This document shows positions 35,888 to 49,812 of a DNA stretch of 52,521 bases, one piece after another. This DNA is from Ardenticatenales bacterium. GTDB lineage: Bacteria > Chloroflexota > Anaerolineae > Epilineales > Epilineaceae. A program made the translations under genes and the position numbers. Location: positions 1-52,521 of the forward strand of contig JADYYS010000069.1 of assembly GCA_020853525.1 (NCBI GenBank), read 5' to 3'. The first letter of the stretch is position 1; each line of letters begins with the position of its first letter. Under the pieces are notes generated by a model. It saw nothing but the letters and a program-made list of their open reading frames with translations, had not been told where the DNA came from and searched no databases.

Positions 35888-36929
35888 GCGTGCCGCGCCC
35901 GACGGCCAGCATCCGCTCGACCGCCTGTCGCGCCCGCGCAGCCACGGCCTCGTCGACCGTCACGCGGTGCGTCATCGTCTCGAGGCTGACGCGGACCTTG
36001 GGCAGCGTGATCCGACCCATGTGCGGGCAGAGCTGGCACGGCCGGATGAACTCGAGCTCCGGGAACTCGGCGGCCACGTTGTCGCTCATCGAGCACTCCG
36101 TCATCAGCGCCACGGAAGCGGGACGGCGCGCGGCCACCTGCTTGATCATCGCGCTCGTCGAGCCGACGAAGTCGGAGGCCGCAAGCACCTCGGGCGGGCT
36201 TTCGGGGTGGGACAGGATGAGGACACCGGGCCGGGCGGCACGCAGTGCGTCCAGATCGGCGGCGGTGAAGCGCTCGTGGACCATGCAGTGGCCCTTGTAA
36301 TCAATGATCTCGACGGTGGTCTGCGTCGCGACCCAGGCGGCCAAGTACTCGTCCGGCAGGAAGAGGACGCGGTCGCTGCCGAGGGACTCGACGACCTCGA
36401 CGGCGTTGGCCGAGGTGCAGCAGATGTCGCTCTCGGCCTTCACCTCGGCCGACGTGTTCACGTACGTGACGACCGGCACGCCGGGGTGCTCGGCCCGCAG
36501 CCGGCGGACGTCGGCGCCGGTGATGCCCTCGGCCAGCGAGCAGCCGGCGCGCAGGTCCGGGATGAGGACGGTCTTCTCGGGGTTGATGATGGCGGCCGTC
36601 TCGGCCATGAAGTGGACGCCGCACAGGACGATCACCTCGGCGGCGGTCTCATTGGCCATCTGCGCCAGCGCCAGCGAGTCGCCCCTGAGGTCCGCCACGC
36701 CGTGGTAGATCGTGGGCGGCATGTAGTTGTGGGCCAGGATGATCGCGTTCCGCTCGCGCTTCAGCTCGTTGATCCGCGCGATGAGCGGTGCGACGATCGG
36801 CCACTCGATGTCGGGCACGCTCTCGCGGAGCCGCTCGCGGACGTCGGCGGTGGCGGCGGCGACGGCGGCGGTGTAGGGCAGCGGGCGGTTGTCGAACAGC
36901 GTTGGGGGGGCGGGGGTTGTCGTCGTCAT
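35880..36929 (-). CDS. nadA: Quinolinate synthase
   Basis: A [4Fe-4S] enzyme that condenses iminoaspartate with dihydroxyacetone phosphate to quinolinate. The 349 residues contain [21 protein letters not shown] (Cys 103), [10 protein letters not shown] (Cys 170/171), and [12 protein letters not shown] (Cys 301 probably the third ligand), plus the SHPESPPEV and GSTSAMI repeats. The ATG at 36929 has AAAGG 9 bases upstream; a longer start at 37031 would cross the promoter. First gene of the nad operon. Confidence 0.97.
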
Positions 36930-36984
36930 GCGCTGGGCCTTTGCAGAGGGGAATTGCGGGGCCGTCGTCGGCGCCGCATGCGCC

Positions 36985-36990
36985 ATTATA
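36985..36990 (-). promoter_or_regulatory. -10 element of the nadABC operon
   Basis: TATAAT on the minus strand, 55 bp before the nadA ATG. The -35 region is GC-rich and not recognisable. Confidence 0.5.
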
Positions 36991-37053
36991 GGCCGGTGGG
37001 GAGAGGGGGACCGGTCCGTGGTCCCTTGCACGCTGCCTGCGTGGGTGCTCCGC

Positions 37054-37059
37054 TATGAT
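37054..37059 (+). promoter_or_regulatory. -10 element of the subtilase gene
   Basis: TATGAT within GCTATGATCCG, 45 bp before the ATG and divergent from the nad promoter. No good -35. Confidence 0.45.
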
Positions 37060-37104
37060 CCGCGCTCACAATCCCCCTCCATCCGGCGCCTCCAGGAGCC
37101 TCGC

Positions 37105-40100
37105 ATGTCGACCTCGCATCCCTTCCGTCCGTCGGCCGTTGCGCGCGTCGGATTCGTCGCGCTGTGGTTCGCGTGGGCGGCGCCCGCCGCCGCCGCGCCC
37201 GACAGCGCGTCCCGGCCGTCCAACGCCCCGCCGACGACGTCGATCGCCTCCGGCGCCCGCTACATCGTCCAGCTGGCCGACGCCCCCCTCGCCGTCCGCC
37301 CCGCCCGCACCGTCCCGATGCGCGCCGCCGCCAAGGCCGCCCGCCTCGCGCCGCCCGACGGCGCCTACCGGGCGTCCCTCCGACGCGCCCAGGATCGCTT
37401 CGTCGCATCACTGCAGGCCGTCGCGCCCGGCGCGACCGCGCTGTACCACTACGACGTCGTCTTCAACGGCGTCACGGTGCGCCTCACGCCCGAGCAGGCC
37501 TCCGCCGCGAGCCGCCTGCCGGGCGTCGTGGCCGTGACGCGCGAGCAGGCCGTGGAGCCGCTCATGGACGCCAGCCTGCCGCTCATCGGCGCGCCGAGGG
37601 CATGGGCCGATCCGCGCGTCGGCGGGCAGATGCGGGCCGGCCGCGGGATCCGGATCGCCGTGATCGACAGTGGGATCACCGCCGCCCACCCGTTCTTCGA
37701 CGACGGCGGCTTCACGGCGCCCGAGGGCTTCCCGCGCTCCACCGTGACGGTCGGCGACAAGGTCATTCCGTACGCGGCCGACAAGGTGGCCGCGTTCACG
37801 AACGACAAGGTCATCGTCGCCCGGACGTACGCCAACCCGGAGAACGTCGCCGCCGGCACGGACCCGACGGTCGACTACGACCCGCTGGCCAAGGGCCTCA
37901 GCGGCTTCCACGGGGCGCACGTCGCCGGCACGGCGGCCGGGGTCTCGATCTTCGGCGCGCCGGGCACGGCCGGCACCGGGCAGCTCGAGCTCTCGGGCGT
38001 CGCGCCGGGCGCCTACGTCATGGCCTACAAGTTCAGCGATGCCTACACCCCCGAGATCCTGCGGATGATCGACGACGCCGTGCTGGACGGGGCGGACGTG
38101 ATCAACAACTCGTGGGGCACGGCGCTGATGAACATCTACCAGGCGGCGCACCACCCGGTGGCCGTCGCGTTCAAGAACGCGCACGACGCCGGCGTCGTCG
38201 TCGTCGCGGCCGCCGGCAACGCGGGCGCGAACGGCGAGGCGACACTCGGCGGGCCGCACCAGATGATCCCCGAGGTCATCACGGTGGCCAACAGCGAGAC
38301 CGGGCGCGGCTTCGCGTACTACGTTTTCGCCAAGGACGCGGGCTTGCCTGTTGAGCTGACGAAGCACCCGGCGGCCTACCAGACGTTCGGCAAGGCCGTC
38401 GCCCGGCTCGAGCGCCCGGCGTTCAAGACGGACATGTGCAACCTGATCGAGATGGGCCTCGGCGGGCGCGGCAAGATCCTCCTCGGCCCGTGGGACGGCG
38501 CGTGCGCCACGCAGTCGCCGCTCATCCCGTTCCCGCTGCCCGCGCAGCTGGCCTTCGTCACGAAGATCGTCAACGCCGCCACCGTCCAGGCCGAAGCCGT
38601 CGTCTTCCACACGGAGGGCGATCTGCAGACCACGGCCGCGCTCGTCGAGCTGATGGGCCAGCTCCTGCCGCTCATCGCCGGCCAGCTGCCGGCCGGCGTC
38701 ACGCTGCCGCCGATCGCGATCATCGGCGGCCAGGGCGCAATGGACCTCGTGGCCTACGCCGAGACCCATCCCTCTCTCCAGCTGATCTACGACACGACGC
38801 CCGAGGCGACGATGGACGCGGCGCGGATCGACGTCGTCAACGCCTCGTCGAGCCGCGGCCCGGCCCCGGACGCGACGACCGGTCTCGCCCCGCTCAAGCC
38901 CGACCTGGCCGCGCCCGGCACGAACATCCTCTCCACGAGCACGGACGCGATCACCGGCGCCCCGGCCGGCTTCACGACCGCCTCCGGTACCTCCATGGCC
39001 AGCCCGCACGTGACCGGCGCCGTGGCGGTCGTACGGCAGGCTTGGCCCGAGTGGACGCCCGACCAGGTGAAGGCCGCGCTGATGATCACGACGCGGATCT
39101 CGGGCACGGTCGACGTCGCCGTCGGCGCCGGCACGGTCGGCGCGCTCGCCCCGGCCACCGAGCAGGGCGCGGGTCGCCTCGATGTGGCCGCGGCGATCAA
39201 CCCGCAGCTCCTCATCGACCCGCCGTCGTTCGACCTCGGCACGCTCACACCGCCTGACGACGTCCCGCCGGCCGCGGCTCGCGACGCCGGCACGGACGAG
39301 ACGGCGTCGACGATGGCCACGCGATCCCTCCGCCTCCACCTGACCGACGTCCGCCTGGCCGCCGAGGGCGCCGCCGAATGGACCGCCGCCCACGCGCCGG
39401 GCACCGGCCCGGCCCCGGTGCCGGTCTCGTTCCCGGAGGGCGCGACGATCGCGGTGCCGGAGGGCGGCGCCGCGGACCTCGCGGTCACGCTCGACCCGAC
39501 CGGCCTCGCACCCGGTGCGTACGACGGCCGGATCGTCCTCACGCGCGGCGATCGAAGCGTCCACGCCACGTACCGCCTGCGCGTCGCACCGCGCGTCGAA
39601 GATGTCCTCGTCGTGAACGTCCGCCGCAAGACGCGGCCGGGCGGCGGCGGCCTCCCGGGCCTCCCGGGCCTCCCCGGCCTGCCGGGCGCCGGCGGCGGCT
39701 TCGACGACGGCGCGGACAACAGCCGCTACTGGACCGCGGCGCTGGACTCGCTGGGCTTGAGCTACGACGTCTGGACGGTCGCCGCCGGCGAGCGTCCGGG
39801 TACGCCGCCGCTGTCCGTCCTCCAAGGCTACCGCCTCGTCATCGTGGCCTGCGGCGACGGCGACGCGCCGCTCGACCGGCTGCCGGGCGGGATGACGGCC
39901 CTCCAGATGTACCTGCTCGGCGGCGGACGAATGCTCGTCAGCGGGACGGGCTACGGCCACGGCCTCGGCACGGCGCTGGACGTCCAGAACAGCGGCGCGA
40001 TGGTGCTCCTGTCCCGCTACTTCGCCGGCTTCGACCTTCGCACGGACAACGCGCCGCTGTCCGGCCGCCTCCGGAGCGTCCGCCTGTTCGACAAGCCGAT

Positions 40101-40788
40101 CCGCCTGTCGAGTGTCGCCAGCCCCGACGCCGCCGGCCTCGGCGCCGTGGTCGACCTCGGCGTGCCGCTGGCCACGCTCCGCACGCAGGCCGTCGGCAAT
40201 CAGCAGCCGCCCGACACCGGCCTCGGCGCCGTCGGCGTCGCCGATCGGATCTTCCCGTACGTCCAGAGCTTCATCGAGATCGACGGCGGCGGCAGCGCGC
40301 TGACCGGCGTCACGGCCGACGCCACACTCGAGCAACCGACGCGCGCGCCCGGAATCCGGTGGCGGGCGATGTTCGCCGGCTTCAGCGTCGAGGCCGTGGC
40401 CACCGGCGACGACACACTCACGCGCGCCGAACTCCTCGGCGACATCGTCGGCTGGGCAAACGAGCCGGACGACGGCCACGTCCTCGTCTCCACGATGCCG
40501 GTCGACGGCCGGCCGGAAGCGCTCAGCGTCACGGCCAATATGCCGTTCGACGGGACGGACTGGATGGCGGGGATCCGCCGCTGGCGCTGGGACGCCGGCG
40601 ACGGCCGACCGTTCGTCACCACGACGGCGCCAGGGACGACGCTGGCCTACACGCGCCCCGGCCGCTACACCGTCCGCGCCGAGGCGATGACGGCCAACGG
40701 GCACACGTTCGTCGGTGAGACGGTGGCCGTCGTGACGGGCGGGCGGACGACGGTGTATCTGCCGGTGGCGCGGCGGTTGGTGGATTGA
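37105..40788 (+). CDS. Secreted subtilisin-like serine protease (S8) with PKD-like domain and YLP tail
   Basis: A 1227-residue secreted protease. Signal peptide 1-31; inhibitor I9 propeptide about 51-155 (RYIVQLADAP); the S8 catalytic domain with Asp188 in AVIDSG, His269 in HGAHVAGT, the oxyanion Asn372 in AAGNAG, and Ser630 in ASGTSMASPH. A protease-associated-type insertion lies about 430-570. After a beta-rich region, GLPGLPGLPGLPG (about 853) is a collagen-like run, then a domain with a possible alpha/beta fold (YRLVIVACGDG), and a PKD-like domain (RWRWDAGDGRP, YTRPGRYTV). The end is TVYLPVARRLVD. AGGAG lies before the ATG. The Cys-poor catalytic part and propeptide suggest export and self-maturation. 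Confidence 0.92.
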   Translation: MSTSHPFRPSAVARVGFVALWFAWAAPAAAAPDSASRPSNAPPTTSIASGARYIVQLADAPLAVRPARTVPMRAAAKAARLAPPDGAYRASLRRAQDRFVASLQAVAPGATALYHYDVVFNGVTVRLTPEQASAASRLPGVVAVTREQAVEPLMDASLPLIGAPRAWADPRVGGQMRAGRGIRIAVIDSGITAAHPFFDDGGFTAPEGFPRSTVTVGDKVIPYAADKVAAFTNDKVIVARTYANPENVAAGTDPTVDYDPLAKGLSGFHGAHVAGTAAGVSIFGAPGTAGTGQLELSGVAPGAYVMAYKFSDAYTPEILRMIDDAVLDGADVINNSWGTALMNIYQAAHHPVAVAFKNAHDAGVVVVAAAGNAGANGEATLGGPHQMIPEVITVANSETGRGFAYYVFAKDAGLPVELTKHPAAYQTFGKAVARLERPAFKTDMCNLIEMGLGGRGKILLGPWDGACATQSPLIPFPLPAQLAFVTKIVNAATVQAEAVVFHTEGDLQTTAALVELMGQLLPLIAGQLPAGVTLPPIAIIGGQGAMDLVAYAETHPSLQLIYDTTPEATMDAARIDVVNASSSRGPAPDATTGLAPLKPDLAAPGTNILSTSTDAITGAPAGFTTASGTSMASPHVTGAVAVVRQAWPEWTPDQVKAALMITTRISGTVDVAVGAGTVGALAPATEQGAGRLDVAAAINPQLLIDPPSFDLGTLTPPDDVPPAAARDAGTDETASTMATRSLRLHLTDVRLAAEGAAEWTAAHAPGTGPAPVPVSFPEGATIAVPEGGAADLAVTLDPTGLAPGAYDGRIVLTRGDRSVHATYRLRVAPRVEDVLVVNVRRKTRPGGGGLPGLPGLPGLPGAGGGFDDGADNSRYWTAALDSLGLSYDVWTVAAGERPGTPPLSVLQGYRLVIVACGDGDAPLDRLPGGMTALQMYLLGGGRMLVSGTGYGHGLGTALDVQNSGAMVLLSRYFAGFDLRTDNAPLSGRLRSVRLFDKPIRLSSVASPDAAGLGAVVDLGVPLATLRTQAVGNQQPPDTGLGAVGVADRIFPYVQSFIEIDGGGSALTGVTADATLEQPTRAPGIRWRAMFAGFSVEAVATGDDTLTRAELLGDIVGWANEPDDGHVLVSTMPVDGRPEALSVTANMPFDGTDWMAGIRRWRWDAGDGRPFVTTTAPGTTLAYTRPGRYTVRAEAMTANGHTFVGETVAVVTGGRTTVYLPVARRLVD

Positions 40789-40873
40789 TCCCCACCCGTC
40801 GGATTGCGCGATGGGCCGACGCCTGCATGTCGCCGAAATTGCGCCCCGGCTGTCTACCACCCAGGAATCTCAA

Positions 40874-40901
40874 CGCACGGCACCGGGGGCGGTGCCGTGC
40901 G
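40874..40901 (+). promoter_or_regulatory. 12-bp perfect hairpin between the subtilase and the next gene
   Basis: CGCACGGCACCG / CGGTGCCGTGCG with loop GGGG, ending 19 bases before the ATG at 40921. There is no T-run, so it may be a weak terminator of the protease gene or a 5' structure of the next. Confidence 0.5.
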
Positions 40902-40920
40902 CCGCTGTAAAGGCTTCCGC

Positions 40921-43900
40921 ATGGCCGCGCGCCATCGCCACAACTTGAGACTCGCGATGCCGGCGGTCTTCATCGCCTGCGTCGGCGCCGCCGCCGTCGC
41001 GCCCGCCGGCCCGGCGCCCCGCGCCCGCCCGCTCGGCATCGCCGGCAGCGGCCAGACGACGCTCGCGCTCGTCGACGCGCACTGGGTCGGCGGCGCGCAG
41101 CCGGCGGCCGGCGGCGACCTGCGGTTGTACCGCCCGGCCACCGGCAGCTTGGCGTCGACGACGACGCATGAAGTGCCCAAGCGCGGCTGGGTCAACGTCG
41201 TGCCCGGGGCGCCAAGCGACGCCGAGGCGGGCGCGTACAGCGGTCGGCTGCTTGGGAGCGAGCGCGTCGTCGCGCGCGCGCAGCACCGCTGGCCGGAGAG
41301 CGGCGGTCGGGCGGCGGACGTTGTCGGATCGCCCCTCCTGGATCGGATCGGCGACGTCTGGGTGCCGCTCGTCGTGGCCAGCCACCGCGGGGAAACGACC
41401 GTCGTTTCACTCCAGAGCAGGAGCCCGTCGACCGCAACGTTCGAAGTCACCGTGATGCCGCTCGGCGTCGCCCTCCCGGAAGCCACGACGACCTATTCGG
41501 TCGCCCCCAATGCCGCCGTGGCCATCGATCTCGGCCTTGACCCCGCGTTCATCGCCCTGCGGCCGAACGCGCCGGACGGCTTCATCGGGACGATGCGCAT
41601 CCACCCCGTCGGAGACGCGATCCCCGTGGTCCACGCCCTCGTGGATGTGGCCGAGACCGCGGCGGTGTACGACTTCGCCGGCATGCCGGCCGAGCGCGGC
41701 ACCACCGCCCTCTTCGTCCCGCTCGTCCACGCCGCGCTGCCCGACGACCCGTCGCTCGGCCCGGAAGCCACGCGCCTCGCCGTCGTGAACGTCGGCGACG
41801 ACGGCGGCGGCGTGCGCGTGAGTTATGTCGGCTTCGGTGGGACGTGCGCGGGGCAGACGATCGCCCATCCGCCGTTCCAGCTTGCGGCCGGTGCGATGAC
41901 GGTCGTCGATCAGGGCGACGGCGCCGGCCTGCCGACCGGTCCGAGCGGCCTGCCCGCAGGCTGTCTGGCGACGGCCCTCATCAGTGCCGATCAGCCGGTG
42001 GCCGCCACGCTCATCGCCCGCCAGACGCGCGACGATCGAACGCTGGCCGCCGCCACGAACGCGCTCCGGCGCGACGACGGCGCCTCGTCCTTCGCCGAGT
42101 TGGCCGTCCCGTGGTTCGCCGCCGACGACGACGGCACGGCGCTCGACAGCGATCTGTTCATCATGAACCTCGAGGGCACGTTCGCCTCGGCGACGGTCCA
42201 TCTCGCGACGGCCGACGGCACGCTGCTGGACTGCGGCGAGCCATGCCGCCGCGTCATCGCCCCGTTCACTACGTGGCGGCTGCGTGCGGCGGCCCTGCCC
42301 GCGGAGCTGCGCGCCCAGGCCGGCGGCGCCGTCGTCGCCGCGGATGGGGCGCGCATCGTCGCGATCGTCCGCTCCGCGCCGGCCGACGGCAGCGGCGACG
42401 CGGTCCTGTGGCCGGCGGTCTTCCGCCGGCTCACCACCACCGACGATGACACCGGTCCGGGAACATGGCTCCCCCTCGTCCTGCGCGCCGCCCCCCCCTC
42501 GGATGCCGCCACCGCGACGCCCCTGCCCAGCCCCGCGGTGCCCAGCGCGACGCCTGCGTCCACGCCCACCGTCCCGCCCTTCGCGCCCGGCGGCGGCACA
42601 GCCGGCGGCGCGCTGAGCACGCTTCTGCTGGCCAACCTCGAGGACCGCCCGGCGTTCCTGGCGGCCGATCTGTTCCTCGTCCAAGGCAGCGGCACCGTGA
42701 GCGGAACGAAGATCGGGCCGACGCGCATCGTCCGCGACCAGCCGCCGCTCCGGCCGCATGCGCTGGCGCTGGCCGCGCTGGAGGACGTCGGCCTCGGCCG
42801 GTACGCCGCCATCGTCGTCGGCGGTCACGCGGTCGGCGCCGTGGCGCGAACGGAGTGGACGGGCGGGGCCGCCGTCCTCGCCGAGCCCGCCGCCGAGGGA
42901 TTCGAGCTGGCCGTGCCGTTCGCGCCGCAAGGGGCGGCTGGTGAGACCGGCGTCCTGTCCATCCACAACCCGGCAACCACCTTCATTGTGAACGTGCACG
43001 CCGAGTTCCTCGATCGCGCCGGCCGACAGGTCGGCAGCCAGACCGTCGCCGTCGGGCCGAACGCCGTGTTCCGGCTGGCGGTCGCCGCCCCCGCGGCGTT
43101 CGACGGCTGGGCGCGGCTGACGAGCGACCGGCCGTTCGGCGCCCACATGCTCGTCGACGCCGCCGCGAGTGCGCGCGGGGCGTACGATGTCGGGGCGGTG
43201 CGCGTCTCGGACGCCGCCGCCAAGCTCCTCGCACCGCGCGTCGTGCGCGGCGTCGCGGCCGCCGGCCCGCTCGGGGGCGCCGGCAGCGGCGCACGGCGGA
43301 ACACGCGCCTCGTCGTCGCCAACCCCGGCGCGACGGCCGTCGTCGTCCGACCGGCCTACCTCGGCATGGCCGGCACGTGCGCCGGCTTCCGGCTGAGCGG
43401 CGCGCCGTTCGGCGTGGCGGCCGGTGCGAACCGCATCGTCGACGTCGGCGCCGAGCCGGCCATGCCCGCCGGCTGCACTGCGTCGGCCACGCTCACGACG
43501 CTCGACGGCGGGATCATCGGCATTGTCGTCGAATCCGTCTCGAGTGCGGCCGGTGGGTGGACCGTGGCGGCCGATCGGCTGATGACCGCTGCCGATGCCG
43601 GTGGCCGCTGGCTCGTGCCGCGCCTGCTGACGGGACGCGACGGTCGCGCGACGACCATCCACGTGATGAACGCGGGCGATACGGTCGTGAACGTCGCGCT
43701 CGGCGCGTACGACGCGGCCGGCGGCGCGCTTGCCTGTGTGGGCTGCAGCGCCGCGCTGTCCCCCGGCGCGGCGGTCGCCTTCGACGGCCGCGCGGTCGTC
43801 GGTGCCGCGGCAGCGCCGGGCGCATGGGCGGAGATCACCGCCGACGGGCCGGTCGTCGCCACGTACGCCGAGGCGTCCGACGACGGGCTGCACGACGACG

Positions 43901-44547
43901 CGATGGCCGCGGCGGTGCGCATCCTGCCGCGGCCGGCCGTCCCGCCGGCGCGGCTGCTCGTGCCGCAACTCGAGAAGACCGTCGATGCCGGCCCGGTGCC
44001 GACCGCCACCCGGACGCCGACCGCCACAGCGACGCGGTCCGTGGCCGGCACGGCGACGCCCGGCGGCGGCAAGGTCACGCTCCTCGCCGTGGCCGTCGTC
44101 AACGTCACGGGCAACGACGACCCAGCCTGCGCCGCATGCGACGGCACGTACGATGACGCCGACCGCGCCGCCGCGGCCCGATCGCCCTTGCCTACGCTGA
44201 CGTTCGTCGTCCGCAACGCCGCCGGCGTCGAGGTGGCACGCCAGCGCTCGATCACCGTCGATCGCATCGAGATCGCCCCGTTCAGCCTCGGCGCGCCGGA
44301 CGCCGGCGGCTACGACGTATCGATCGAGGCGCTGCCGGGCGCGTGGCTCGGCTGCCCGAACAGCCCGGCCGTGCGCCACCTCGCGGCGGCCGACTTCCCG
44401 CTCGGCAGCGCGAAGGTGGACTTCCACCTGTCCAACACGTGCCTGCCGAGCAACCGCCCGCCGCTCGAGCCGGTGCAGATCCCCGGCGCAACGCCGACGG
44501 CGGGCCTGGATCGGATGATCGCCTACATGCCGGCACTCCGGAGGTGA
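40921..44547 (+). CDS. Large secreted protein of two duplicated halves with internal WLP and terminal YMP motifs
   Basis: No family recognised. The 1208 residues begin with a basic start and signal peptide (about 12-35). Two similar halves follow: each has a segment of the form NxG/NPG...GTCAG...AGxxxxVDxG...PAGC (for example VNVGDDGGGVRVSYVGFGGTCAG and VANPGATAVVVRPAYLGMAGTCAG). The first half ends in GTWLPLVLRAAP and a Thr/Pro linker; the second ends in another Thr/Pro linker, a last domain with paired Cys, and IAYMPALRR. Thus the linker-plus-LP unit occurs once inside and a related one at the end, as if two surface proteins had fused. AAAGG lies about 8 bases upstream of the ATG at 40921. 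A secreted or surface location is inferred. Confidence 0.7.
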   Translation: MAARHRHNLRLAMPAVFIACVGAAAVAPAGPAPRARPLGIAGSGQTTLALVDAHWVGGAQPAAGGDLRLYRPATGSLASTTTHEVPKRGWVNVVPGAPSDAEAGAYSGRLLGSERVVARAQHRWPESGGRAADVVGSPLLDRIGDVWVPLVVASHRGETTVVSLQSRSPSTATFEVTVMPLGVALPEATTTYSVAPNAAVAIDLGLDPAFIALRPNAPDGFIGTMRIHPVGDAIPVVHALVDVAETAAVYDFAGMPAERGTTALFVPLVHAALPDDPSLGPEATRLAVVNVGDDGGGVRVSYVGFGGTCAGQTIAHPPFQLAAGAMTVVDQGDGAGLPTGPSGLPAGCLATALISADQPVAATLIARQTRDDRTLAAATNALRRDDGASSFAELAVPWFAADDDGTALDSDLFIMNLEGTFASATVHLATADGTLLDCGEPCRRVIAPFTTWRLRAAALPAELRAQAGGAVVAADGARIVAIVRSAPADGSGDAVLWPAVFRRLTTTDDDTGPGTWLPLVLRAAPPSDAATATPLPSPAVPSATPASTPTVPPFAPGGGTAGGALSTLLLANLEDRPAFLAADLFLVQGSGTVSGTKIGPTRIVRDQPPLRPHALALAALEDVGLGRYAAIVVGGHAVGAVARTEWTGGAAVLAEPAAEGFELAVPFAPQGAAGETGVLSIHNPATTFIVNVHAEFLDRAGRQVGSQTVAVGPNAVFRLAVAAPAAFDGWARLTSDRPFGAHMLVDAAASARGAYDVGAVRVSDAAAKLLAPRVVRGVAAAGPLGGAGSGARRNTRLVVANPGATAVVVRPAYLGMAGTCAGFRLSGAPFGVAAGANRIVDVGAEPAMPAGCTASATLTTLDGGIIGIVVESVSSAAGGWTVAADRLMTAADAGGRWLVPRLLTGRDGRATTIHVMNAGDTVVNVALGAYDAAGGALACVGCSAALSPGAAVAFDGRAVVGAAAAPGAWAEITADGPVVATYAEASDDGLHDDAMAAAVRILPRPAVPPARLLVPQLEKTVDAGPVPTATRTPTATATRSVAGTATPGGGKVTLLAVAVVNVTGNDDPACAACDGTYDDADRAAAARSPLPTLTFVVRNAAGVEVARQRSITVDRIEIAPFSLGAPDAGGYDVSIEALPGAWLGCPNSPAVRHLAAADFPLGSAKVDFHLSNTCLPSNRPPLEPVQIPGATPTAGLDRMIAYMPALRR

Positions 44548-44555
44548 GGGGGACG

Positions 44556-44723
44556 ATGCGCGCGGAACGGATCGCACGCCGGCGGTCGTCCGAACGAGGA
44601 CGGTTCGACCGAGGACAGTCCGAACGACGACAGGCCGAACGACGACTGTCCGAGCGACGACAGTCCGAACGACGACAGTCCGAACGAAAGCAGTCGGTGG
44701 TCAACGGCGGACGGAAGTGGTAG
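44556..44723 (+). CDS. Possible small basic protein made of SERRQ pentapeptide repeats
   Basis: A 55-residue frame starting 9 bases after the preceding stop, with GAGGGGG just before its ATG. Residues about 12-46 are seven pentapeptides of the form (S/A/L/F)-(E/D)-R-(R/G/K)-(Q/F/L), encoded by 15-bp tandem repeats. It is strongly basic and has no homologue I know. Translation is plausible because of the ribosome site and the in-frame repeats, but the repeat may simply be a non-coding minisatellite. Confidence 0.35.
   Translation: MRAERIARRRSSERGRFDRGQSERRQAERRLSERRQSERRQSERKQSVVNGGRKW
44589..44693 (+). repeat. Seven 15-bp tandem repeats
   Basis: Units near TCCGAACGACGACAG, seven in a row, diverging by 0-5 bases. 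They lie between the 1208-residue protein gene and the sigma factor gene. Confidence 0.9.
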
Positions 44724-44824
44724 CCTTGACTCTGTCGCCTGCCCGCGGCTGTCTGTTCGCGCCCGCGGGACTGCCGTGGGCAGCCGAGTCCGTACCGCCG
44801 CACCGAACGACGACGACACCGACG

Positions 44825-45481
44825 ATGGAGCCTGGCGGCCCCGTGAACACGATCGCACCGAGCGCACCCCTCGAGACATCGCACGTGCCGGAGTCTTCCC
44901 GCGTGCCGATCGATCTTGTGCGCCGGGCGGCGCAGGGGGACGCGCCGGCGTTCGGCCGGCTGTACGAGGCCACGGTCGACCGCATCCACCGCTACGTCTG
45001 GCTGCGCGTCCGCGACGCCGACATCGCCGCCGACCTTACGCAGGACATCTACGTGAACGCGCTGCGCGGCCTGCCCCGCCTCGACGCCCCGGAGCGCTTC
45101 GAGGCCTGGCTGCTGCGGATCGCCCACAACCGCATCGTGAACCACTGGGTGGGCGCCGAGCGGCGCGGATCCGAGGTCTCGATCGATGGCGACGATGACG
45201 AGGACGCCGACGGGCCGTCGTTGCGCAACCTCGCCGACCCGCATGCTGCCGCGCTGGACGACATCGCCGTCCGGCGGGTTCGGCTCGATGATCTGTCCCA
45301 GCACCTCGGCGTGCTGAGCGAAGCGCAGCAGGAAGTGCTGGCCCTGCGCTTCGGTGTCGGCCTCTCGTTGGCCGAGACCGCTTCCCAGCTCGGCCGGTCC
45401 GAGATGGCGATCAAACAGCTCCAGCGGCGCGCGCTCGTCACGTTGCGCGAACGGCTGCGGGCTGCGGAGGTGGAACGATGA
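44825..45481 (+). CDS. ECF-type RNA polymerase sigma factor
   Basis: A 218-residue sigma factor. Region 2 (about 30-105) contains DAPAFGRLYEATVDRIHRYVW and ADLTQDIYVNALRGLPR, with the RIAHNRIVNHW helix; region 4 (about 155-210) contains LSEAQQEVLALRFGVGLSLAETASQLG and the recognition helix SEMAIKQLQRRALVTLRERL. An acidic linker (IDGDDDEDADGP) joins them. Regions 1 and 3 are absent, as for ECF factors. The TGA overlaps the ATG of the next gene, so the large membrane protein is translationally coupled and is the likely anti-sigma partner. The ATG at 44825 is chosen; an earlier start would add low-complexity residues. Confidence 0.93.
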   Translation: MEPGGPVNTIAPSAPLETSHVPESSRVPIDLVRRAAQGDAPAFGRLYEATVDRIHRYVWLRVRDADIAADLTQDIYVNALRGLPRLDAPERFEAWLLRIAHNRIVNHWVGAERRGSEVSIDGDDDEDADGPSLRNLADPHAAALDDIAVRRVRLDDLSQHLGVLSEAQQEVLALRFGVGLSLAETASQLGRSEMAIKQLQRRALVTLRERLRAAEVER

Positions 45482-48400
45482 CCCAAGTCCCCCCGTCGGG
45501 GCGCGCGGCGCCGCAGCTGGACGACGCGCTCGAGTCGGCCATCGCCGACCTTCTTGCCGGCACCGCGGACGACCGCGCGCCTGAGCGCGCGACGAACGGT
45601 GCCGGGGACGGTGACGCGGCGCGCGCGCGTTCCCAGGCGCACGTCCTCGTACCCATCGCCGCGGCGCTGCAGACCGCACCGCCGCTCGACCCGACCCGCC
45701 GCGCCGCCCTCGGCGCGCTCCTGGAGCGGATCGCCGCCAACCCGACCGACGACCTGCCGCCGGGCGCGCCGGCCGCCCCGCCGTCCCTGACCGCCGCTCC
45801 GACCGCCGCTCCGACCGCCGCACCCCAACGCAACGGCGCCCGTCCGGCCGGCGCCGCGGCGGTCGTCGGCCTGCTGGCGATCCTGGCGCTCGGCGGCGCG
45901 CTCTGGCGAAGCCGCGGCGCAGCGGGCGGAGCGGATCCGTCGGCGGGATCGACGACGCCACCGGCGGCAGCCGTACCCGGCATCGGGCCGGGCGGCGCGG
46001 CGCCGTCGCCGGCGGACGACGCGACCGCGCGGGCGGCCACGGCAGCCGCATCGCGGCCCGGTTCGATGACGGGCGGGACGGATGCCGGGGCCGCGGCACG
46101 AGCCACATCCTTGCTCGGCATGCCGTCGCTCGGCAACACCGGCGCCGCGGCGACCGCCACGGCGCGGCAAGCCGCCCGGCAGCGTGCCGTCGCCGATGCG
46201 GGGTCGAAGGCCGTCGGCCCGTCCGGCGTCCTGCCCGGCGGTGCGTCGAACCTCGGAGCCGCGACGGTCGAGGCCGCACCGACCGACGTTCCGCCGGCCG
46301 CGACGCCGCGGCCGCAGCGGCGAACAGACGCCGATCAACCGACCCGGACCCCAGCGACGACCGCGCCGCCGACAACCGCGCCGGCGCCGACCGTCGACAC
46401 CTCGACGCCGGCCGGCGACCCGAACCATCCATGCCATGCGCTTGCGCAGCCGAACGTCCTCGTCGCACGGATCCTGGCGGACGACGGCGCGCCGATCGCC
46501 GATGCCGTCGTCACGCTGTTCCTGGTGGGCCAGATCGACTTCGCGTCGTTCGGCGCGACGGACGCGCGCGGCTGCGTGGCGATCGAGCAGGCCCCCGGCC
46601 GCTACGACCTCCGCGCGGAGGCCGCCGGCTTCGACGCGCGCTGGTACCCGGGCGCCGTCGATCGCGCCGCCGCCCAGGCGCTCGAGGTCGACGGGGCGGC
46701 GGCCCGCGCGCCGGTCGACGTCCGGCTGCCGCGCAGCGTGGCGGCACCGCCATCGCCGAGCGCCACCCTGCCCGCGGCGTCGTTCAACGCCACGCCGACC
46801 GCCGCCGAGCCGACATCGGCGGCATCGCCCACGGCGCCGCCGCCGGCGCCCGCCACAGCCCCGGCCGACGCCGACGCCGACGCTGACGCTGACGCTGACG
46901 CTGACGACCATGCAACGATCGATGTCGCGACGTCCGATGTCGCGGTGCGCGATGTCACGACGACCGACGTCGCAGCGCCCGATCTCGCAGCGCCCGGTCT
47001 CGCGACGAACGATGTCGCAGCGCCCGACCGTGCCGCAACGCTCGCCGGGCTGCCCCTCGATCGACAGCGTCAGCTCGACGGCTTGGCCGAGTTTTCCCAG
47101 GACGGCGGCACGGTCACCGCGGTCGCGCTCGACGACCGGATCGTTTGGGGCGTGGTCGGGCCACGCGTCCTCGGCTGGCCGCGTGACGCCGGCGGCGGTT
47201 CGAACGCGCCCGTGGCTTGGACGCCCGTGCTGCCGGAAGTGCCCGAGGCGATCGCGCTCGACGGGGATCGCCTCGTCGTGGCGACACCGGGCCGGGACGG
47301 TGCGCCGGCGACGGTCTGGATCTTCGACATCGCGCCGACGGGCGCGCTCGGTCATGTCGCGGCGCTGGGCGCATGCGACCTGACCGGATCGGGTGCGGCA
47401 GAGGTGATGGCGCTGGCCGCCGACGACACATGGATCTACGCGCTCACCGAGCGCGGCCTTTCGATCGTCGACGCCAAGCGCGCCGCGGCGCCGTTCGAGA
47501 TCGGCCATGCGGCGGCTGGGACGGCGCCGACCGCGCGCGCATCGGGCAGCTTGACGCTGCTCGGCGACGGCACGCACGCCCTGCTCGCCCGCCCCTCCGG
47601 CCTGCAGGTGATCGACGTGCGCGCACCGGCCGCGCCGCGCGTCGTCTTCCAGGGCGTCCCGCGCGACGTGCACGCCGTCGCGGCGGACGGCGGCACGGTG
47701 GCGGTGGCCATCGAAGCGGTGACCGGACGACTGGCCGGCACCGGCGGCACGCTCCGCCTGACCACGCTCGATGTCGCCGACCCGACGCGTCCGCGCGCGC
47801 TCGCCGCCGTGGCCCTGCCCGGGGGAGCGCATGCCGGGGGAACAGATGCCGGAGGAACGCTGCCCGACGGCGCCGGATCGGCCGCCGGTGGTGCGCGCGC
47901 CGTGACGGCGCTTGCGGGCGAGCAGGCGGCGGTCGTCGACGGCGACGGCCGGTGGCTCTGGATCGTCGATCTGTCCGATCCCGCCGCGCCCGTCGCCAGC
48001 GGCCGGATCCCGCTGTCGGCGGCACCGACCGGGGCTGCCGCTCTGGCGATGGATGCCGAGGGAACGGCCGCCGTGGCGCTTGGCGCCGCAGGGATCCGAT
48101 TGCTGACGGACGGCCTCGCGGCGCCGCACGGCATCGTGCCGCCCGTGGCGCAGCTGGTGCTCGGCACGGACGGCCGCGTCGGCTGGGGCGCCGCCGGCGC
48201 CGTCGGCCTCGTCGCGGTCGACCTCGTCGCGCGGCCCGATGCCGCGGCGCCGGGCGGACGGCTCCTCGGGAGCACCGCCGCCGCTGCGCCGGACGGGTCG
48301 GCGGCCGATGTGCACAGCGTGCTGGCCGCGGGGAACACGGTGTACGCCCTGACACGCCGCGGCGGGCTGATGGGATTCGATGGAACGGATCCGCACCGCC

Positions 48401-49812
48401 CGACACGGCTTGCGCTGACCGACGGCCGGCTGGCGGCGATCGACGGTGGCGCGGTACCGGTGCAGCTGGCGGCCGACGGTGGCCGGCTGTACGTGCCGGA
48501 CACGGCGGGCACGGTTCACGTCGTGGACGTGCGGCGGCCGGCGGACCCGCGGGTGGCGGGGCAGCTGACGGGGGTCGGCCGCGACGACGACCGGCTGGTG
48601 GCGCTGGCGGCGGACGGCTCGCGCTTGTATGCATTGACGACGGACGGCCGCACGAGCCGCGTGCACGCGCTGGACGTGGGCGATGCGTCGGCGCCGCGGT
48701 TGGTCGGGGCGGCGGTCGCGCTGGACCGGGCCTATCGCCGCGTCGCCATCTGGGGCGACCGCCTCGTCCTGTCGGGCGATCGAATCGCGCCCGGCCTCGG
48801 CACGATCGACCGCAGCCTGGACCCGGCGACGCGCGTCGAGGTGCCCGGGCTGGCGGCGGGCGCGGTCGGGCTGATCGAAGTTCCCGGCGGCGGGCGCCGC
48901 GCACTCGTGGCGGACGACGCCTTCCTGACCGCCGTCGACCTCGACGCCCTCGCCGACGCGGACGGCCGGATCAGCGGTCGATCCGTGCGGCTGCCGCTCG
49001 GCCACCGCGCCGCCGGTGGGTCCACCGACGTTCGGATCGTCGGCGACCGCGTCTACGTTGCCCGCCACGAGGCCGGGCTCTTCGCGCGACCGCACGGCGG
49101 CGGGTGGCTGCCGCAGGCGCCGTCGGCGGCGCCGCCCGGAAGCGGCGGACCGGGACCGTTGACGGTCCGGCTCTTCCTGCCGTCGGTCGTGAAGGGGCAC
49201 CCGACATGCGTGCTGCCCGGGCGGGTGCACGGCGTGCTGCTCGTCGACGGCGCGCTGGCGTCGTACGTCGATCGAAGCTCACCGTCCGGCACGGACGGCG
49301 CGTCGGCGCTGGCGCGCTTCCGGCCGGGCGTGGCATCGTGGCTCAGCGGGTTGGGCGTCGGGACGCGGCCCGGGACGGCCGCCAGCATCGTCCTGTGGGG
49401 CGAGCAGGCGAACTTCGTCGGCCAGGGCGCCGATGCCGGCGTGCTTGCGACGGCGTTCCCCGGCCGCATCGTGCCTCGCCCGGGCCGGCGCATCGATCTC
49501 GCGCTGCGGAGCGCCGAACAGCAGCTCGGCGTGCGCGCCGGGACGGCGTCGGCCGAGGTCGCCGGCCGTGTCGTCTTCGTGGCCACGGTCGGCTGGCCGG
49601 ATGACGTCCACACCAAGGCCGTGGCCGACGCAGCACGGCTGCGGGCGGCCGGCTGGCGGATCGAGGCCATCGCGCTCGGCGACGACGCGCCGATCGCACA
49701 GCTGGCGGACCTGACGGGCGACGCGACCGGCGTGGCGCGCGTGGCCACGCTGGCCGAGCTGCCGATGGCGATGGCGCGGGCGGGGCAGGCGGCTTGGCTG
49801 TGCGCGCGGTAG
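45478..49812 (+). CDS. Giant single-pass membrane protein coupled to the ECF sigma factor (putative anti-sigma/surface sensor)
   Basis: 1444 residues. The cytoplasmic N-terminus (about 1-122) is helical and could bind the sigma factor; no zinc anti-sigma motif is present. One membrane helix spans about 125-143. Outside follow a Thr/Pro/Ala spacer; a carboxypeptidase-regulatory-like beta-sandwich (about 320-420: NVLVARILADDGAPIADAVV, RYDLRAEAAGF); a (DA)n run (about 464-477); and eight pentapeptides of the DVAxx type (482-521). A long region of propeller-like repeats (about 540-1215) has strands of the form DxxWIYALTERGLSIVD and DGGRLYVPDTAGTVHVVDV. Next comes VRLFLPSVVKGHPTC and a degenerate VWA-like domain (about 1245-1440: VHGVLLVDGA, VVFVATVGWPDD). 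The overlap with the sigma gene suggests an outside-in signalling pair. Function is inferred; no such fusion is known to me by name. Confidence 0.8.
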   Translation: MTQVPPSGRAAPQLDDALESAIADLLAGTADDRAPERATNGAGDGDAARARSQAHVLVPIAAALQTAPPLDPTRRAALGALLERIAANPTDDLPPGAPAAPPSLTAAPTAAPTAAPQRNGARPAGAAAVVGLLAILALGGALWRSRGAAGGADPSAGSTTPPAAAVPGIGPGGAAPSPADDATARAATAAASRPGSMTGGTDAGAAARATSLLGMPSLGNTGAAATATARQAARQRAVADAGSKAVGPSGVLPGGASNLGAATVEAAPTDVPPAATPRPQRRTDADQPTRTPATTAPPTTAPAPTVDTSTPAGDPNHPCHALAQPNVLVARILADDGAPIADAVVTLFLVGQIDFASFGATDARGCVAIEQAPGRYDLRAEAAGFDARWYPGAVDRAAAQALEVDGAAARAPVDVRLPRSVAAPPSPSATLPAASFNATPTAAEPTSAASPTAPPPAPATAPADADADADADADADDHATIDVATSDVAVRDVTTTDVAAPDLAAPGLATNDVAAPDRAATLAGLPLDRQRQLDGLAEFSQDGGTVTAVALDDRIVWGVVGPRVLGWPRDAGGGSNAPVAWTPVLPEVPEAIALDGDRLVVATPGRDGAPATVWIFDIAPTGALGHVAALGACDLTGSGAAEVMALAADDTWIYALTERGLSIVDAKRAAAPFEIGHAAAGTAPTARASGSLTLLGDGTHALLARPSGLQVIDVRAPAAPRVVFQGVPRDVHAVAADGGTVAVAIEAVTGRLAGTGGTLRLTTLDVADPTRPRALAAVALPGGAHAGGTDAGGTLPDGAGSAAGGARAVTALAGEQAAVVDGDGRWLWIVDLSDPAAPVASGRIPLSAAPTGAAALAMDAEGTAAVALGAAGIRLLTDGLAAPHGIVPPVAQLVLGTDGRVGWGAAGAVGLVAVDLVARPDAAAPGGRLLGSTAAAAPDGSAADVHSVLAAGNTVYALTRRGGLMGFDGTDPHRPTRLALTDGRLAAIDGGAVPVQLAADGGRLYVPDTAGTVHVVDVRRPADPRVAGQLTGVGRDDDRLVALAADGSRLYALTTDGRTSRVHALDVGDASAPRLVGAAVALDRAYRRVAIWGDRLVLSGDRIAPGLGTIDRSLDPATRVEVPGLAAGAVGLIEVPGGGRRALVADDAFLTAVDLDALADADGRISGRSVRLPLGHRAAGGSTDVRIVGDRVYVARHEAGLFARPHGGGWLPQAPSAAPPGSGGPGPLTVRLFLPSVVKGHPTCVLPGRVHGVLLVDGALASYVDRSSPSGTDGASALARFRPGVASWLSGLGVGTRPGTAASIVLWGEQANFVGQGADAGVLATAFPGRIVPRPGRRIDLALRSAEQQLGVRAGTASAEVAGRVVFVATVGWPDDVHTKAVADAARLRAAGWRIEAIALGDDAPIAQLADLTGDATGVARVATLAELPMAMARAGQAAWLCAR
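46921..47040 (+). repeat. Eight 15-bp repeats encoding DVAxx pentapeptides
   Basis: Eight in-frame units beginning GATGTCGCGACGTCC and diverging from it. They encode DVATS, DVAVR, DVTTT, DVAAP, DLAAP, GLATN, DVAAP and DRAAT in the external stalk of the large membrane protein. A (GACGCT/C)n run encoding (DA)n precedes it. Confidence 0.85.

Follow-up and report, generated by a model that had tools for sequence, protein, structure and literature searches.

In the BldN-RsbN system of Streptomyces, RsbN is a membrane-anchored anti-sigma factor and the founder of class III (PMC8103513). Clostridial RsgI proteins respond to the binding of an external ligand with stepwise proteolysis that leads to sigma factor release, and those of Clostridium thermocellum carry large modular extracellular sensors with carbohydrate-binding, PA14, glycosidase or peptidase-like domains (PMC12203970). 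In the PorA/SigP case, which belongs to the type IX secretion system, a surface-exposed protein signals to an ECF sigma factor (PMC7712824). Our literature search found no paper on DUF5667 and none on LVIVD together with an anti-sigma factor, nor did it find a description of what the RsbN-related membrane anti-sigma factors of Anaerolineae sense.

The window analyzed here, 52,521 nucleotides in length, is contig C69 of the multi-contig draft genome G000 (4.27 Mb) of an uncultured Anaerolineae bacterium. On its forward strand, an ECF sigma factor gene (44825..45481) is followed by an open reading frame of 1444 codons (45478..49812), and the TGA stop of the former shares 4 bp with the ATG of the latter, an overlap already described in an earlier note on this DNA. 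The sigma frame is open from 44717 to 45481, with a plausible ATG at 44825; the giant reading frame shows coding-type codon-position GC along its full length. We compared this locus with four related loci from two genomes, which belong to two further genera of this family: one in G001 (C112) and three in G002 (C120, or locus A, which continues on C143; C324; and C427). From its sequence, we consider that the window locus follows the known pairing of an ECF sigma factor with a membrane anti-sigma factor, in a form that is new and specific to its lineage.

The sigma factor contains Sigma70_r2 and Sigma70_r4 domains above the Pfam cut-offs and has no region 3, as in ECF sigma factors. Its best match among 105 NCBIfam families is TIGR02952, the BldN family, at 107.9 bits; as this score lies below the equivalog cut-off of 206.45, we call the protein BldN-like rather than BldN. 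Consistent with this assignment, BldN is the closest of the solved sigma factors (PDB 6dxo_A, E 1.7e-22). Within the family, the closest homologues are the sigma factors of G001 C112 (53%) and G002 C120 (51%), followed by those of G002 C427 and C324 (45–46%), and the five sigma factors with this architecture form one clade (support 99/97). The window genome appears to have a large sigma repertoire, sigma-70 region 2 having been matched at 33 places.

The earlier note had proposed that the giant protein has one membrane helix behind a head of about 120 residues, and the hydropathy profile agrees: there is a single strong helix, best placed at residues 124–142 (45847..45903; maximum 2.26 over 19 residues), which leaves a predicted cytoplasmic head of about 123 residues (residues 1–123, 45478..45846). 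In a structure model of low confidence (pLDDT 50), the head forms three helices (10–39, 45–66 and 72–87), as predicted for an anti-sigma domain, and the membrane helix spans residues 126–148. The head is very rich in alanine and matched no Pfam family. Residues 1–125 contain no cysteine, so that the Hx3Cx2C motif of the zinc-type class I anti-sigma domain is absent from the head; the zinc variant is not the sole form of the class I domain.

Throughout the class, most close homologues of the sigma factor have as their downstream neighbor a single-helix protein whose head measures 90–130 residues, and a 4-bp overlap between sigma and anti-sigma genes is a common arrangement among the closest of them. 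Most of these partner proteins carry DUF5667 on the outside (9 of 10 class relatives); Pfam detected no DUF5667 after the membrane helix in the window. A class-wide profile of the heads matches those of G001 C112 (1.5e-12), G002 C120 (1.2e-6) and G002 C324 (3.2e-6); with this profile, the head of G002 C427 was not significant and the window head was not found directly. A profile built from the relatives' heads does match the window head (E 1.8e-5, best shuffle 0.011), and the latter is thus, via intermediate sequences only, best regarded as a diverged member of the class-wide anti-sigma heads that follow BldN-like sigma factors.

Searched against the whole PDB, the head profile scored best with chain D of 6dxo, at a non-significant E of 0.23. 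From the entry, we take this chain to be RsbN, the anti-sigma factor of BldN; it is a 91-residue chain labelled BldN that appears to be RsbN, and the file names may be swapped. Since the sigma factor and the head profile, each weak evidence alone, both point to 6dxo, an RsbN-type head is likely. The membrane protein, a putative anti-sigma factor, probably restrains the sigma factor. The window locus resembles BldN-RsbN in having an adjacent membrane-anchored partner with a short N-terminal head, probably of three helices; it differs in that its sigma factor stays under the TIGR02952 cut-off, its head similarity is below significance, and its ectodomain is much larger and of a wholly different kind. 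Likewise, it shares with the DUF5667-type anti-sigma factors of Anaerolineae a homologous head, one membrane helix and the 4-bp overlap after a related ECF sigma gene, whereas its ectodomain consists of CarboxypepD_reg, propellers and VWA.

This predicted extracytoplasmic part begins with a linker rich in alanine, proline, threonine and glycine (residues 143–320, 45904..46437), which is found in the same place in the separate-gene anti-sigma factors described below. It is followed by a CarboxypepD_reg beta-sandwich (Pfam PF13620; residues 331–397, 46468..46668), where the anti-sigma factors of the relatives end; the match to residues 331–392 of the window protein (E 3.7e-6) lies just under the Pfam gathering score, which is exceeded in three of the relatives' anti-sigma factors. 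Beyond a low-complexity stretch (residues 432–540), residues 541–1235 (47098..49182) make up a tandem LVIVD-type beta-propeller region, as indicated by (i) an LVIVD repeat above the Pfam gathering score; (ii) regular blades; (iii) homology to separate secreted proteins; and (iv) an AlphaFold model of the propeller-VWA part, which matched tandem propeller/WD40 proteins best in the PDB. This last model is also of low confidence (pLDDT 45), since only two sequences qualified for it, as for the head model, and its fold matches were used solely as support for the propellers.

Searched directly, the last 205 residues matched no Pfam family. However, a profile of homologous C-termini, canonical VWA domains included, matches residues 1240–1444 (49195..49809) with an E of 2.8e-22, the best of 300 shuffles reaching 0.003. 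The beta-sandwich, propeller-like repeats and VWA-like domain that had been suggested from the sequence alone were therefore all recovered by profile matches. In the window VWA domain, the MIDAS motif (DxSxS) is degenerate (VLLVDGALAS), whereas the G002A homologue has DTSDS. Because the MIDAS is missing, metal-dependent adhesion by this domain is unlikely, and any binding would have to fall to the propellers or to another face.

The earlier note had stated that anti-sigma factors usually have small ectodomains; large sensory ones nevertheless have precedent in clostridial RsgI (PMC12203970). The window protein is like RsgI in combining a one-helix anti-sigma factor with a large modular outer part, proteolytic activation being a feature of RsgI (PMC12203970). 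It is unlike SigI/RsgI in its sigma group, its head and its propeller/VWA ectodomain, and in that, in the relatives, the outer domains form a protein of their own; Pfam and NCBIfam searches of the window proteins gave no match to an RsgI N-terminal domain or to a SigI-type sigma factor.

In all four relative loci, the sigma gene is directly followed by a gene for a single-helix protein with head, helix and CarboxypepD_reg, whose stop codon comes soon past the CarboxypepD_reg domain, and the next gene encodes a separate propeller protein with a signal peptide of its own. In G002 C324 and C427, the two loci that could be read through unbroken, these two genes overlap by 4 bp (ATGA). The propeller protein of G002 C427 exceeds the Pfam cut-offs for both LVIVD and VWA; in G001 C112, the contig ends within the propeller gene, so that no VWA domain is visible. 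At G002 C120, the end of the anti-sigma gene sits on contig C143, and the join, hence the linkage of locus A, is a presumed one. The proposal that sigma factor and giant protein form a sigma/anti-sigma pair must accordingly be modified. The pairing of the sigma factor with a membrane protein is kept in the relatives, and the head belongs, through intermediates, to the class-wide family; however, the giant protein is an atypical partner, since in every relative found the beta-sandwich is the last domain of the anti-sigma factor, and a separate secreted protein supplies the propeller(-VWA) part.

A class-wide search of 396 genomes revealed no full-length relatives outside the family; weak matches in G152 and G198 were rejected, as no related sigma factor was present within the stretches examined. 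The window protein had no relative among the named genomes scanned, a search with the G002 C427 propeller protein matched only its own record, and the plasmid collection gave only generic matches, in cyanobacteria. The five propeller proteins are too diverged for their alignment to serve as a search profile.

Two further loci of related sigma factors are arranged differently. In the window genome itself, contig C52 carries a second such locus (L048 9719–13775), in which a propeller protein that has a membrane helix at its C-terminus is encoded immediately upstream of the sigma factor and an anti-sigma factor with CarboxypepD_reg downstream; in this anti-sigma factor a stretch resembling the start of DUF5667 (SRPGDVLYPIRRGVE) precedes the CarboxypepD_reg domain, and the locus has the appearance of an evolutionary intermediate. 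In G001 C341 (L053 932–6280), the gene directly upstream of the sigma factor encodes a secreted protein that carries five copies of the CarboxypepD_reg repeat, and the downstream neighbor looks like an anti-sigma factor with a similar beta-sandwich at its end.

Because the relatives make the window protein from two adjacent genes, we interpret it as a gene fusion, the only fused case among the five loci. The junction, about 110 residues of low complexity between CarboxypepD_reg and the propellers (residues 432–540, 46771..47097), consists of (AD)n and DVA-rich repeats. The separate genes are likely the ancestral state, as outgroup sigma factors are followed by anti-sigma factors without a propeller. 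The fusion suggests that the secreted propeller-VWA protein belongs to the signalling system, and argues that it acts together with the anti-sigma factor. Furthermore, the comparison of one fused genome with three intact separate-gene loci, and a fourth split by a contig break, would name one secreted partner and also a specific contact, the CarboxypepD_reg domain. It would add propeller/VWA ectodomains to the anti-sigma repertoire, and the steps from DUF5667 to CarboxypepD_reg, to a separate propeller partner and to the fusion would provide a graded series for rebuilding ECF input in evolution.

We consider it fairly probable that the locus encodes a BldN-RsbN-like pair of ECF sigma factor and membrane anti-sigma factor, the latter fused to a formerly separate, co-transcribed secreted propeller-VWA protein that acts as a sensor. 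The head would keep the sigma factor at the membrane, while outside, the propeller-VWA part, a separate secreted partner in the relatives and covalently attached here, would bind a ligand or a surface-protein assembly. Binding would alter the tension on, or the access to, the membrane-proximal anti-sigma factor, which would then be cut by regulated proteolysis, and the released sigma factor would direct transcription of the operon and probably also of the neighboring secreted-protein gene. Genes of the site-2 protease family are present in the window genome; as all 14 control genomes have such genes as well, their presence is permissive only. We infer that the ectodomain senses a surface signal. 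A more specific version, in which a dedicated secreted tandem-propeller-VWA co-sensor docks on the CarboxypepD_reg domain of an RsbN-like anti-sigma factor, forming a three-component ECF system whose interaction is recorded in the fusion, is put forward tentatively, our confidence in it falling a little short of even. Like PorA/SigP, such a system would have a surface protein feeding an ECF sigma factor; there, the route runs through the PorXY two-component system (PMC7712824), while in the window the surface protein is fused to, or in the relatives encoded beside, the predicted anti-sigma factor.

The fusion itself might be questioned, as the genome is a multi-contig metagenomic draft, there are short tandem (AD)n repeats at the junction, and, given the 4-bp overlap in two relatives, one frameshift could join the genes, so that an error of sequencing or assembly in the low-complexity junction would have produced the giant reading frame. 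A single indel, however, would have kept the start and signal peptide of the second gene within the reading frame. No signal segment was found at the junction in a hydropathy scan of the three forward frames, where the best 12-residue hydropathy is 1.14, compared with 1.7–2.8 in the signal peptides of the four relatives; neither is there a stop codon, and the coding-type codon bias runs on across the junction. With no remnant of a signal peptide, we judged an assembly artefact very unlikely. Only slightly less improbable is that the giant protein is no anti-sigma factor at all, merely a surface protein co-transcribed with the sigma gene. The alanine-rich head without a Pfam family and its weak RsbN match would fit this reading, which must contend with the significant matches of the relatives' heads to the class-wide profile (1.5e-12 to 3e-6), with the match of the window head to theirs (1.8e-5), and with the gene overlap and membrane helix that are common to sigma partners across the class.

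A serious rival, though in our judgement an unlikely one, is that the propeller-VWA part is an output rather than an input, namely a sigma-controlled surface or adhesive protein tethered by the membrane anchor of the anti-sigma factor. The operon layout fits an output role of the propeller protein as well as it fits a sensor role: in the relatives, its gene is the last of the operon and has its own signal peptide, as expected of a regulon member, and these genomes encode many similar secreted VWA/propeller proteins. On the other hand, if an abundant surface protein were attached to a regulator of low copy number, every surface molecule would become a sigma inhibitor, and the fusion, together with an adjacency kept in a single sigma clade, suggests a stoichiometric partner.

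The surrounding secreted proteins had been proposed as regulon candidates of this sigma factor, and one type among them is conserved next to the sigma gene. Homologues of the secreted protein sec_40804 (40804..44547, forward strand), encoded upstream of the sigma gene in the window, lie immediately upstream of the sigma genes in G002 C120 and C324, the latter being its best match in all of G002; sec_40804 is therefore the best candidate for a regulated output gene. The subtilase at 36889–40788 has no match in the relatives' loci, and a shared promoter motif, for which the earlier note had suggested a search, did not emerge, as counts of bipartite motifs upstream of the five sigma genes were no higher than in shuffles. 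Upstream of the G001 C112 sigma gene are a dehydrogenase-like gene and genes for two large secreted proteins with VWA domains, of which one also has NHL repeats (L046 4856–11352).

A few additional features of these loci were observed. In the window, the interval that separates the sigma gene from the secreted gene upstream of it contains an array at 44588–44687, in which a 15-bp unit (GTCCGAACGACGACA) is repeated about 6.7 times; the array may represent SERRQ repeats in a short reading frame or a minisatellite. Weak homologues of a secreted protein encoded at the contig end (50993–52504) occur next to two further loci of these sigma families (L048 14330–14539; L051 9143–9337). Finally, a short YLPL/FLPS-like motif (AYMPALRR, RLFLPSVVKG, RVYLPLASHAG, RVVYLPVAHQ) recurs in secreted proteins, either C-terminally or directly ahead of the VWA domain (window 44520–44547; residues 1231–1240 of the giant protein; L047 about 2500–2539; L051 7346–7400) and may be a sorting or structural signal.
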